A stretch of 64,000 bases of DNA, from NCBI RefSeq assembly GCF_003144095.1, contig NZ_NSKH01000023.1, positions 841,611-905,610 of the forward strand, given 5' to 3'. Positions 27,120 through 34,983 of the stretch are shown here, one piece after another. The DNA comes from Streptomyces sp. ICBB 8177. Lineage in GTDB: Bacteria; Actinomycetota; Actinomycetes; Streptomycetales; Streptomycetaceae. Each line of letters starts with the position of its first letter. Within the stretch, counting starts at the first letter, position 1. Below the pieces are notes generated by a model. It was given only the letters and a program-made list of their open reading frames with translations. It made no database searches and had not been told where the DNA came from. The position numbers and the translations under genes are program-made.

Positions 27120-27980
27120 CTACGCGTACGCCACGGCGGACGGCCACGGGCCGCTGGCCAGGCGGCTCAGGCGGGCCGCCGCGGTCTTCGTGGCGTCGAT
27201 GACCTCGGGCGGGGCGAGCGGCATCTCGTGCATCGGCTTCAGCAGCAGCACGGCTCCCATGATCGAGTCGTCCCACATGATGGGCGCGGCGCAGGAGTTC
27301 CATCCGGCCATGCACTCCTGCTGGCCGAGTGCGTAGCCGCGGTCGCGCACGTCGGCGAGGGAGGCGATCAGCGCGTCGTCGTCCACGTAGACGCCGGGGC
27401 CCGCCTCCTCGGGGACGCGTTCGGCGATGACGCGTTCCTGGAGGGAACGCGGAAGATAGGCCAGAATCGTTCGTCCGGAGGCGCCGGTGCGCAGGGACCT
27501 GGTCACCGACAGCACGTCACGCGGGGTCATCCCGAGTTCGACCAGGTCGGAGTCGCCGACGGCCATGTCGATGCACTGCCGCTGGGCGCCGCCGAAGGGC
27601 GCGAGCATGTAGAGGAACGCCAGTCCGCCGCCGGTCGCGGTGCGCAGCTCCTGCAACGCGGCGTGGCCCGCGTCGCCCTCCGGGCCCCGCGCCAGCGCGT
27701 GCAGGCCCAACTGTGCGGCGGCGAGGCCGAGTTGGTACTGCCCGCGGCCCACCCGCACGAACGTGCCCTGGTAGACGCCGGACTGGAGGATGCGGTGCAC
27801 CGCCGAGTCGTCGAGACCGGTCACCCTGGCCAGCTCACCGGGGCCGTGCGAGACGCCGCCGAGTTCGGCGAAGGCGGTCTGCACCCGGAAGACCCGCTCG
27901 GCGTGGCTGGTGCCGCCCGGCGAGGCGTGGCCGTCGCGCCGTGTGTCCACGGGGTGCCCGGAGTTGCTGTGCCTGCTCAT
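27120..27980 (-). CDS. IclR family transcriptional regulator
   Basis: This 286-residue protein has an N-terminal winged helix (about 28-90: RVFRVQTAFAELGGVSHGPG, LARVTGLDDSAVHRILQSGV). A C-terminal effector domain follows, with TGASGRTILAYLP, YALGQQECMAGWNSCAAPIM and a closing helix. IclR proteins control catabolic or secondary metabolism genes in response to small ligands. The nearest candidate target is the quinone-oxidoreductase gene 225 bp upstream on the same strand, but no operator was found. Confidence 0.9.
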   Translation of the reverse strand: MSRHSNSGHPVDTRRDGHASPGGTSHAERVFRVQTAFAELGGVSHGPGELARVTGLDDSAVHRILQSGVYQGTFVRVGRGQYQLGLAAAQLGLHALARGPEGDAGHAALQELRTATGGGLAFLYMLAPFGGAQRQCIDMAVGDSDLVELGMTPRDVLSVTRSLRTGASGRTILAYLPRSLQERVIAERVPEEAGPGVYVDDDALIASLADVRDRGYALGQQECMAGWNSCAAPIMWDDSIMGAVLLLKPMHEMPLAPPEVIDATKTAAARLSRLASGPWPSAVAYA

Positions 27981-28204: not shown

Positions 28205-29152
28205 TCAGGAAGCCGTCGTGAGCACCAGCTTCCCCGCGCCCGTCCGCTCGGCCAGGGCCCGGTGCGCCCGCGCCGCCTCGGCCAGCGGGTAGGTCGCGCC
28301 GATCACCGGACGCAGTGCGCCGGAGCGCACCGCCGCGATGAGCGCCCGCATGCTCGTGGGCAGCGCGTGGCGGTCGGTGTACAGCTGGGGGAGCCAGAAG
28401 CCGCTGACGGTGACCGACTTCTCCATCAGCAGCCGCACGGGCACGTCCACCGCCTCACCGGACGCGTAGCCGTACACCGCCAGCCGGCCCCGCGGGGCGA
28501 CCGCGGCGAGGGTCGCGTGGAAGGTGGCGCCGCCGGTCATCTCCAGCGCCGCGGCCACCGGACCGCCCGCCGCGTCCAGGATGCGCTCCGTCAGGCCCTC
28601 GGGCGTGGAGGAGTCGACGACCGCGGCGGCGCCGAGGTCGGCCGCGAGCCGGCGCTTGGCCTCGGTGCCGGCCATGGCGATCACCCTGGCGCCCGCCTGC
28701 TCGGCCAGCTGCACCGCCAGCGAGCCGAGGCCGCCACCCGCCGCGGGGATCAGCACGGTCTGCCCGGCGGTCACCTGGGCGGCGCCGAACAGCAGGTGCC
28801 AGGCGCTGTTGCCCTGAAGGGCGAGCGCGACCGCCTGCTCGTCGGTGATGTCGTCCGGCACGTCGAACGCCACCTTGCGGTGGACCAGGGTCTTCTCCGC
28901 GTAGCCGCCGCCCCGGGTCAGGGCGACGACCCGGCGGCCGTCCTCGGTGGTGCCGACGATCTCGTTGCCGGGGATGTACGGCAGCTCGACCGGGGCCAGA
29001 TAGGTGTTGCCGCGCACGTGCACGTCGGCGTAGTTGACCCCGGCACGGGTCACGTTCACCAGGAGGTGGCCTCCCCGGGGTTCGGGGTCGGGAACCTCGG
29101 CGAGTTCGAGCACCTCGGGCCCGCCGAACTCACGCATGGTGATAGCGCGCAT
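28205..29152 (-). CDS. Zinc-free quinone oxidoreductase-like dehydrogenase (MDR family)
   Basis: This 315-residue protein has a GroES-like N-terminal half (MREFGGPEVLELAEVPDPEP, AGVNYADVHVRGN, PYIPGNEIVGTT) and a nucleotide-binding half with AAGGGLGSLAVQLAEQAG at about 143-160. The catalytic-zinc ligands of alcohol dehydrogenases are absent, as in NADPH:quinone reductases. The ATG at 29152 has GAGGAGA just upstream; the frame extends far further but without protein-like sequence. Its upstream region is the structured interval 29153-29816. Confidence 0.9.
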   Translation of the reverse strand: MRAITMREFGGPEVLELAEVPDPEPRGGHLLVNVTRAGVNYADVHVRGNTYLAPVELPYIPGNEIVGTTEDGRRVVALTRGGGYAEKTLVHRKVAFDVPDDITDEQAVALALQGNSAWHLLFGAAQVTAGQTVLIPAAGGGLGSLAVQLAEQAGARVIAMAGTEAKRRLAADLGAAAVVDSSTPEGLTERILDAAGGPVAAALEMTGGATFHATLAAVAPRGRLAVYGYASGEAVDVPVRLLMEKSVTVSGFWLPQLYTDRHALPTSMRALIAAVRSGALRPVIGATYPLAEAARAHRALAERTGAGKLVLTTAS

Positions 29153-29360: not shown

Positions 29361-29450
29361 TTTCTCGCCCTGCGAGAAAGCGCGGAGAGCCGGAAGTCGT
29401 CGCATCCGGACATAACGGAGTACCGCTTTCTCGCAGGGCGAGAAAGCGGT
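29361..29450. repeat. Two oppositely oriented copies of a palindromic sequence
   Basis: A 22-base sequence at 29361-29382 recurs as its exact reverse complement at 29424-29445. Each copy contains TTTCTCGC and GCGAGAAA separated by three bases. The second copy extends to perfect 13-bp arms (29422-29434 and 29438-29450). It could be a pair of operators, a hairpin-type transcription signal or a dispersed palindromic repeat. Confidence 0.75.
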
Positions 29451-29494
29451 TGAGGCCTTGCGGTGCGGGGGCAGCTTTGACATAGTGAACTCGC

Positions 29495-29588
29495 GAGTCG
29501 CGCTCGGGTCTTGAACCCGCAAGGTCCGCGGGGGATTTTTGGTCCTGCGGGTTCTGGGTGGGATTTACCCCACACCCGAGCGCGACTC
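29495..29588. other. 94-bp three-way-junction element of unknown nature
   Basis: Perfect 15-bp outer arms (29495-29509 and 29574-29588) enclose a second perfect 9-bp stem (29513-29521 and 29546-29554) and a small GTGGG/CCCAC hairpin near 29557-29572. The fold is possible on either strand. No target-site duplication is evident at the ends. It could be a structured RNA, a small non-autonomous element or an integration relic. Confidence 0.6.
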
Positions 29589-29816
29589 ATTCAGTTTTCT
29601 GGAAAGCGCAGGGCCCCGCGTAGAACGCCGATCGGCCGCCTTTCCTCACCCGCACTCCTTGACTCCTTTTCGCGTCGTCTTTTCCTTGTGCGGGAAATTC
29701 GTCCGCGTGCCGCCGAATCAGCGCGTTCCCGGGTGGGGGAGCGGGCCGGGCGCCGTGGTGGGTCCGAGCGGATAATGGGCCGTGTCCGCTCGGTCCATTG
29801 ACCGCAGGAGGCCCAA
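29589..29816 (+). other. Non-coding leader region of the ABM gene
   Basis: These 228 bp are AT-richer in places (runs of T near 29590-29690) and hold no convincing gene. The promoter of the ABM-domain gene should lie here, but no clear hexamers stand out. GCAGGAGG at 29803-29810 is its ribosome binding site. Confidence 0.4.
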
Positions 29817-32167: not shown

Positions 32168-32271
32168 GAGCGTAAGCGGCACCCGCGGGCGCCGCATCCG
32201 CTGTCCGCCGCCGACCGGCCGCGGTACCGCGGCCGGTCGGCGGCGGCCGCCCAGGCGTGACGCGGGCCGTC

Positions 32272-33578: not shown

Positions 33579-34196
33579 GTGAGCAGCCCCGTACCCGTGA
33601 CGCACCACGGCCACACCCGCAGGAAGCGGCTGGCCCTGGTCCTGCTGCTGGTGCTGCCGGCCGCCGCCGTGCTGATGGTGGGTGTGGGCGCGGGAGCGGT
33701 GCCGGTCTCGCTGGCGATATCGGCCCGCTCGCCCGCGCTGTCCGGCCAGACCTTCCAGGTCGCCGCCGACCGCCTCCAGGGCACCGGCTTCACCCAGTCC
33801 ACCGGGGACGACTCCACCGCCCGCGGAGGCTTCCCCGAGGCCGTCTCCGGGATCAGGTCGGCGGACCTGTACGACCTGTGCCAGTCCGTCGTCAGCAAGG
33901 TGCCCGGCTTCGGCGCGGTCACCGTACGCATCACCGCTGGCGGCGGCGGACACCCCGCACACGCCGACAACCTGGTGGTCCGCAGCGACGACCTGTCCGG
34001 CGACGCCACCTTCCGCGACGTCACCATGGGCGTGGACGCGGGCACCTTCGGCGGCGCGGCCGGCAGTGTCGGCCAGCAGGCTGACGCGGTGACCATCGAC
34101 CACCTGCGTCAGACCACCCGGGCGGTGAGCGCGGCCACCTTCCGCCTCAACGGACTGCACCTGAGCGTCCGAGCGCACGCCGCCCCCTGTTTCTAG
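33579..34196 (+). CDS. DUF6230 family membrane-anchored/secreted protein, copy 1
   Basis: This 205-residue protein has a basic start followed by a long hydrophobic helix (LALVLLLVLPAAAVLMVGVG), then a beta-rich exported domain beginning VPVSLAISARSPALSGQTFQ. Two cysteines remain: DLYDLCQSVV and the terminal APCF. The family has been annotated as cholesterol esterase without evidence. It is paralogous to the next gene throughout. The GTG at 33579 is the likely start. Confidence 0.85.
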   Translation: MSSPVPVTHHGHTRRKRLALVLLLVLPAAAVLMVGVGAGAVPVSLAISARSPALSGQTFQVAADRLQGTGFTQSTGDDSTARGGFPEAVSGIRSADLYDLCQSVVSKVPGFGAVTVRITAGGGGHPAHADNLVVRSDDLSGDATFRDVTMGVDAGTFGGAAGSVGQQADAVTIDHLRQTTRAVSAATFRLNGLHLSVRAHAAPCF

Positions 34197-34305: not shown

Positions 34306-34983
34306 GTGCACCCCGACGACACCCTGCCCCCGGCCGCGCGGACCGCGCCTCCCGCCGTCCCGGCCGCCGCGGCGACGGGCCGGACCCGGTGGGGGCGGCT
34401 GGCGCTGGTGATGGTGCCGGTGCTGGCGGTCTCCGCGGCCCTGCTCGCCGCCACCGCGGAGGGAGCGCTCGCCGCGTCCTTCGGCGTCTCCGCCAACTCC
34501 TTCACGGTTTCCGGCCGCAGCTTCCAGATCAGCGCCGACACCCTCGCCGGCACGGACTTCGTGCAGTACGGCGTGGTGGACCAGGGCCGCTCCGGCTCCT
34601 ACCCGGAGGCGCTGTCCGGCATCAACTCCGCCGATCTGTACGACCTGTGCCAGTCCGTCGTCCAGGACCTGCCGTTCGTCGGCCCGGTCACGCTGCGGCT
34701 GACCTCCGGGACCGCCGGCCCGCCCGCGCACGCCGACCGGCTGGTGGTGGACGCTCACGACCTGCGCGGCGACGCGGTCTTCCACCACATCGACATCGGC
34801 CAGGACGCCTCGACGGTCTCCGGCGTGCCCGGCGTTCAGGGATCGCCCGGCGGGTTCGGAGAGCAGGCCGCCACCATCCGCATCGACCACCTGCGCCAGC
34901 AGACCCGTTCGGTGAGCGCCGCCACCTTCCGGCTGCCCGGGCTGCACCTGTCCGTGACGTCGGGCGACCGTTCGTGCTTCTGA
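34306..34983 (+). CDS. DUF6230 family protein, copy 2
   Basis: This 225-residue paralogue of the preceding gene has an N-terminal cytoplasmic segment, one hydrophobic helix (LALVMVPVLAVSAALLAATA), then ASFGVSANSFTVSGRSFQIS. It shares ADLYDLCQSVV, the IDHLRQ(Q)TR motif, SAATFRL and a terminal SCF. The start is GTG at 34306. It overlaps the DUF6114 gene by ten bases, which fits the common DUF6230-DUF6114 pairing; the two probably form a cell-surface complex of unknown purpose. Confidence 0.87.
   Translation: MHPDDTLPPAARTAPPAVPAAAATGRTRWGRLALVMVPVLAVSAALLAATAEGALAASFGVSANSFTVSGRSFQISADTLAGTDFVQYGVVDQGRSGSYPEALSGINSADLYDLCQSVVQDLPFVGPVTLRLTSGTAGPPAHADRLVVDAHDLRGDAVFHHIDIGQDASTVSGVPGVQGSPGGFGEQAATIRIDHLRQQTRSVSAATFRLPGLHLSVTSGDRSCF

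Follow-up and report, generated by a model that had tools for sequence, protein, structure and literature searches.

Positions 29495–29588 of the window (the whole stretch of 64,000 nucleotides from Streptomyces sp. ICBB 8177 analysed here) hold a compact 94-base element, for which the initial annotation offered three identities: a new structured RNA, a miniature mobile element or a recombination site. The question is which of these the element is and, if it is an RNA, from which strand it is made and with what it might interact.

Fold and distribution of the element

On the plus strand, the element is predicted to fold as a three-way junction (3WJ). The outer stem, P1, pairs positions 29495–29509 with 29574–29588 in 15 perfect base pairs (GAGTCGCGCTCGGGT / ACCCGAGCGCGACTC). 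The P2 arm (29513–29554) contains a second stem of 9 base pairs (GAACCCGCA / TGCGGGTTC) with an imperfect inner extension, and alignments A2 and A3 show a conserved apical region, CRCGGGGGAWTT, with GGGGGA at 29530–29535. The third hairpin, P3 (29558–29573), has 5 base pairs (GTGGG-ATTTAC-CCCAC, stem GTGGG / CCCAC) and the weakest covariation support of the stems. The computed fold thus bears out the paired outer bases, second stem and third small hairpin described from the letters. The minimum free energy is −61.3 kcal/mol on the plus strand (z-score −6.5) and −58.6 kcal/mol on the minus strand (z-score −8.2), and none of 200 shuffles folds equally well on either.

The window contains 49 pairs of inverted repeats of at least 14 nt, many of them imperfect (the 25 longest were inspected). 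Since others reach a similar length, P1 alone is not decisive, and the reality of the 3WJ rests on the three-stem fold and its conservation. The element was said not to be a functional tRNA, and indeed ARAGORN calls no tRNA or tmRNA in the window. A scan of the whole window against Rfam release 15 gives no match at the gathering score; a permissive scan gives weak matches only, the one over the element being to VA RNA (15.2 bits versus 62, E 5.3).

The element is single-copy in its own genome, where all further matches are of 22 nt or less. The one other genome of the same GTDB genus examined (G001) carries a copy which is 96% identical (95.7% over the 3WJ). A DNA search of 394 genomes of the family, in which 47 have a match at E ≤ 0.1, adds one more full-length relative (G026, 71% identity, E 0.009), and the element is found in all three genomes of the genus of G026; six loci with weak matches (L010, L011, L012, L018, L035 and L037) were inspected and none has the element. 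A covariance model, R1, was built from the five copies, window included, of these two GTDB genera. Searched with R1, the 394 family genomes give six with a match: the same five and G282, whose locus L048 was rejected because it looks like coding sequence. True matches are therefore present in 5 of 394 family genomes, all in two genera, although remote relatives may escape searches of this size, whose filters are stricter. A search of 28 of the 394 genomes with laxer filters gives two matches, with E-values of 0.19 and 0.41. The first (L088) was rejected as a homologue and reads as an ordinary terminator hairpin; the second (L089) scores 16.4 bits. Among 394 genomes of the class, R1 matches that of the window and, in a single further genus, two more. 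Of these two, L101 was rejected as a simple terminator-like hairpin and L102 as a stretch which looks coding and lacks the element.

An exact-pattern search of a collection of 84,980 species finds the element in Streptantibioticus parmotrematis, S. ferralitis, S. rubrisoli and Streptomyces sp. RPT161, four records which correspond to the four relatives with a copy already described. The NCBI taxonomy has five named species of Streptantibioticus; S. cattleyicolor and S. silvisoli are not among the matches.

In all five genomes, the element adjoins a gene for a zinc-binding dehydrogenase (QOR), itself flanked by an IclR-like gene, and on the opposite side is a DUF6296 gene. The homologue search proposed by the initial annotation, which was to separate dispersed copies from a syntenic one, therefore returns one syntenic copy with some compensatory changes, and favours the structured RNA among its options. 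As far as these comparisons reach, the element is retained by only a few Streptomyces-like bacteria, next to the oxidoreductase gene and its operator-like sites.

Evidence for a probable RNA gene on the plus strand

Folded singly, each of the five copies gives the same 3WJ topology on the plus strand, with z-scores from −6.1 to −7.1. The z-scores of the minus strand (−6.2 to −8.9) are about as good or better and so do not choose the strand. The plus-strand fold is the more stable in all five copies, by 2.7 kcal/mol in the window and by 5.9 to 10.4 kcal/mol in the other four. In the related genus, P1 includes U-G and G-U pairs; read from the minus strand these positions would be A-C mismatches, and as the wobbles are valid on the plus strand only, the plus strand is favoured. 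The notion that the ends pair on either strand stands for the window copy and fails in two of the three copies of the related genus, where the outer stem loses the pairing of its last three bases when the minus strand is folded.

In alignment A2, 93.5% of the pair cells are paired, compared to 87.9% in shuffles and 30–52% in slid controls. Five pairs are changed on both sides (two in P1, three in P2 and none in P3), in nine cells. This number of doubly changed cells and the covariation score of 0.238 are each reached by none of 500 shuffles, which ignore the relatedness among the five sequences. Nothing unusual is seen in how many pairs change, a count equalled or exceeded in 76 of 500 shuffles, or in how many further pair types occur (321 of 500). 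In P1, 10 of 14 pairs are invariant across the alignment, and in P3 84% of the cells are paired. The power of covariation is low because there are only five copies from two GTDB genera. Conserved structure and compensatory change, as expected of an sRNA gene, are both found, in five sequences and with two of five covariation measures ordinary.

The best-kept parts of the 3WJ in the alignment are P1, the apical CRCGGGGGAWUU and, in the third hairpin, GGGAUUU. When the window is compared with G001, of the same genus, identity is 95.7% over the 3WJ, 92.2% over the palindrome cassette (see below) and 88.6% over the promoter stretch; it is 84.7% over the QOR leader and 79.2% over the downstream intergenic stretch, and reaches 96.1% at the start of the QOR coding sequence and 91.0% in the ABM gene.

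A putative promoter precedes the element. A −35 element, TTGCGG (29458–29463), is identical in all five copies and lies 17 nt before an extended −10, TGA-CATAGT (29478–29486), of which TGA is present in five copies and CATAGT in four, the fifth having CACACT. The pattern across copies is TTGCGG-N17-CAYAST with the TGA extension, and in every copy 6–9 nt separate the end of the −10 from the AGTC with which the outer stem opens. P1 is followed by a T-rich tail, ATTCAGTTTTC (29589–29603), a putative intrinsic terminator which is broken in the window's genus and strong in the related genus (ATTTTTCTTTT, AATTTTTTT, TATTTTTTT). The spacing of the −10 and the T-rich tail place a putative RNA gene at about 29493–29603 on the plus strand, with a start near 29493–29495. 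A strict consensus scan reports no promoter in the stretch upstream of the element, so that the promoter and end signals are inferred from conservation and spacing; the consensus scan gives one terminator-like site, inside the element, at chance level.

It seems quite probable, on sequence grounds, that the plus strand encodes a free-standing small RNA of about 95–110 nt, with a putative promoter, a putative end signal and a putative G-rich recognition loop. Transcription would begin from a promoter of the sigma-70 type, within the first few bases of P1, and would stop at P1 together with the T-rich tract which follows it; the RNA would fold into the three-way junction.

An alternative, which appears unlikely, is that the element is a cis-acting leader or attenuator of the downstream gene, with the 3WJ as an aptamer and P1 doubling as the terminator stem. 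The order of promoter, 3WJ and T-tract resembles that of an attenuator. However, the downstream gene on the plus strand is not constant: the five genomes have three kinds, namely an ABM monooxygenase gene (two genomes), an XRE-like gene (one) and what we take to be a chaplin-like gene (two). Its start lies 193–287 nt past the outer stem in four genomes and at 85 nt in the fifth, where the predicted frame is over-long. Motifs with a three-stem junction are reported upstream of genes in Streptomyces, among them dauA and asfR (PMC11109978), and the 3WJ resembles them in its junction; unlike the 3WJ, whose downstream gene changes, these are upstream of a fixed gene. A leader is expected to keep its gene, and the change of gene suggests that the element is more likely its own gene and probably not a leader.

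It is quite unlikely that the element works as DNA, as a cruciform, a protein-binding site or a recombination site in which the inverted repeat is needed and a transcript is not. The sequence of P1 is near-invariant, beyond what pairing requires, the z-scores of the minus strand match those of the plus strand, and the adjoining palindromes resemble DNA sites whose cassette is inverted between genera. This reading does not agree with P1 wobbles tolerated on the plus strand only, with a minus-strand fold which is the less stable in every copy, or with promoter-like elements phased to P1. As for a recombination site, the inversion between genera is seen only in the neighbouring palindrome cassette and gives no support to this identity for the 3WJ.

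Finally, a miniature inverted-repeat transposable element or other mobile copy is very improbable despite the perfect terminal inverted repeats: the genome has a single copy (with no other match above 22 nt), neither dispersed copies nor a variable insertion site are found, the chromosomal place is the same in all five genomes, searches of phage and plasmid records give no match to the element, and viral sequences give no match to the promoter pattern and seven contigs matching the stem pattern, which were rejected (best 10.6 bits, E 0.28 with the model).

The preferred reading, a free-standing small RNA gene, has precedents in the genus. The scr, sar and svr small RNAs of Streptomyces are intergenic, some are species-specific, one is 89 nt long and most of those discussed have two or three predicted stem-loops (PMC3765725). 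The 3WJ element is like them an intergenic small RNA candidate in Streptomyces. It differs from them, taken as a set, in being a three-way junction closed by a P1 of 14–15 base pairs and in its presence in 5 of 394 family genomes, all in two genera. The literature titles listed include none on a 3WJ RNA of this kind or on its neighbouring operators, and the element most likely represents a narrowly distributed RNA family which was not previously described.

The palindromes and the QOR/IclR module

The palindrome pair noted beside the element is real. Its two members, TTTCTCGCCCTGCGAGAAA (29361–29379) and TTTCTCGCAGGGCGAGAAA (29427–29445), are operator-like in genome and multi-genome site scans and share the form TTTCTCGC-N3-GCGAGAAA, which occurs twice in the whole genome, both times at this locus. 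The divergent QOR gene, encoding a zinc-binding dehydrogenase resembling quinone oxidoreductases, is on the minus strand at 28205–29152, stop included (Pfam ADH_zinc_N, 2.5e-26), with a start codon chosen by us within a longer frame; an orthologue is at the same place in all five genomes. The IclR-like gene follows on the same strand (27120–27980; Pfam IclR_C, 7.4e-09; HTH_IclR, 21.6 bits for a cut-off of 22), and its product is the candidate binder of the palindromes.

The association between palindromes and QOR extends beyond the genomes which have the RNA. A looser pattern, TTTCTCRNNNNNYGAGAAA, was scanned in 12 chosen genomes; eight of them have sites, 16 in total, all within 300 bp upstream of QOR, and the reversed control gives none. 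Three of these eight genomes (G047, G093 and G108) have no match to the RNA model in the laxer-filter search. Two of the four genomes which have no TTTCTCRNNNNNYGAGAAA site (G103 and G148) have degenerate sites upstream of QOR. In other Streptomycetaceae, three tandem degenerate copies of the palindrome lie upstream of QOR at L065, and four at L067.

Of 150 family genomes searched for QOR, 65 have a match with an E-value of at most 1e-60, and the best 30 places were taken as loci; an IclR-like gene is beside QOR in 14 of the 30. Sites with at most three mismatches are found upstream of QOR at 10 of the 14 loci with an IclR gene in the fetched flank and at none of the 16 others, and sites with four mismatches at L068 (IclR gene present) and L082 (IclR gene absent). 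The cut of three mismatches was set after seeing the list and the 14 IclR loci are the nearest QOR orthologues, so that the association is confounded by relatedness and is suggestive rather than proof. As in IclR/operator systems, the site is thus present where the IclR gene neighbours its target, with that same confounding.

The most fitting interpretation of the palindromes is that they serve the QOR/IclR module as operators. The locus resembles those of IclR regulators with palindromic operators by their target, in that the IclR-like gene adjoins QOR and dedicated palindromes lie upstream of it; it departs from such systems in having a putative RNA gene across the operators, found in this clade only, and the binding proposed here is predicted from sequence. 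The putative promoter of the RNA is 11–12 bp from the nearer palindrome in all five copies (in the window, the one at 29427–29445, 12 bp upstream of the −35), which makes shared control plausible. The RNA gene would be transcribed away from QOR, and the IclR-like regulator probably controls the two together.

The segment between the palindromes is inverted between the two genera: its alignment scores 18–26 in the inverted orientation versus 10–11 forward, and the inverted score is reached by 0 to 17 of 1000 shuffles. This fits an old inversion at the palindromes. The palindrome pair together with its core, in which CGGACATAACG (29407–29417) is conserved, is inverted relative to the window in the three genomes of the related genus (S. 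ferralitis and the two which match S. rubrisoli and sp. RPT161).

Two other features of the window were observed. Positions 32205–32246 form a perfect palindrome of 42 bp, with two arms of 21 nt which are 100% complementary and no spacer. Farther on, the neighbouring stretches 33609–34163 and 34378–34950 are about 68% alike, as seen from cross matches against a relative, and are probably tandem paralogous genes.

The G-rich loop and 6C RNA

The apical region is constant and G-rich while the stem which carries it varies, which hints at a site for recognizing C-rich RNA and at a trans-acting RNA: the apical CRCGGGGGAWUU would act as the site recognizing C-rich partner RNAs. The predicted openness of the G run differs among copies, and the run is mostly paired in some of them, such as that of G026.

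Targets were sought in the five genomes by the complement of the loop, with AAWTCCCCCGYG. This occurs in the own genome only within the RNA gene itself; there is one further site in G001 and one or two in each of the other three genomes. One further site is common to the three genomes of the related genus, within a region which is about 91% identical by inheritance. The search gives no evidence of a target.

This shared site is at L095, L096 and L100, near position 1500, where the loop 12-mer, CACGGGGGAATT, precedes a clgR-like gene and reads in the direction of that gene. We take this gene to be clgR, and the shared motif presumably resembles a SigR −35 element. The site was rejected as a target, its sense strand carrying the same G-rich letters and not their complement.

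A mechanism which can be considered for the small RNA gene is that it serves as a sponge for the actinobacterial 6C sRNA (RF01066), with a kissing contact between its GGGGGA and the C-rich loops of that sRNA. Both are small actinobacterial RNAs with a run of one base in loops, C in 6C and G in the 3WJ; 6C differs from the G-bearing three-way junction in consisting of two hairpins with C-rich loops, at another locus. All five genomes have a 6C-like RNA, with the same sequence in each, although these matches are below the Rfam cut-off (43.4 versus 47 bits). In each genome, the best contact is the six-pair GGGGGA/UCCCCC, with a net energy of −7.4 to −10.7 kcal/mol after opening costs, and mononucleotide shuffles are as good in 1, 1, 4, 1 and 0 of 30. 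With so few shuffles the control is a loose one; the scan covered gapless contacts of 5–8 pairs only, and an unpaired run of five G would score about as well. The C-rich loops of 6C reportedly act as the seed in M. tuberculosis (Mai, 2019). In the mycobacterial B11 RNA, too, C-rich loops are the seed (PMC12395582). The predicted pairing of most of the G run in G026 is unfavourable to a sponge, as is the distribution of 6C, which is described as much more widespread than that of the 3WJ RNA. In the literature searched, no report of a sponge of 6C RNA was found.

On balance, the sponge mechanism is unlikely; as a partner, 6C RNA is possible but has weak support and can be taken as a lead only. 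It is distinctly improbable, as a fuller scheme, that a clade-specific sponge operates at this locus, in which the IclR-like regulator, by one operator array, would drive both QOR and the 3WJ RNA, whose loop would titrate 6C and so link a local metabolic signal to the 6C regulon.

If the small RNA gene is real, it would define a new and well-bounded RNA family in antibiotic-producing actinobacteria. The locus would offer a clean test system, in which a single RNA and a single divergent gene flank a pair of dedicated operator-like sites, and the relatives which have operator-like sites and in which no RNA is found add to its value in this respect. If the G-rich loop pairs with 6C RNA, the 3WJ RNA would be a 6C sponge.
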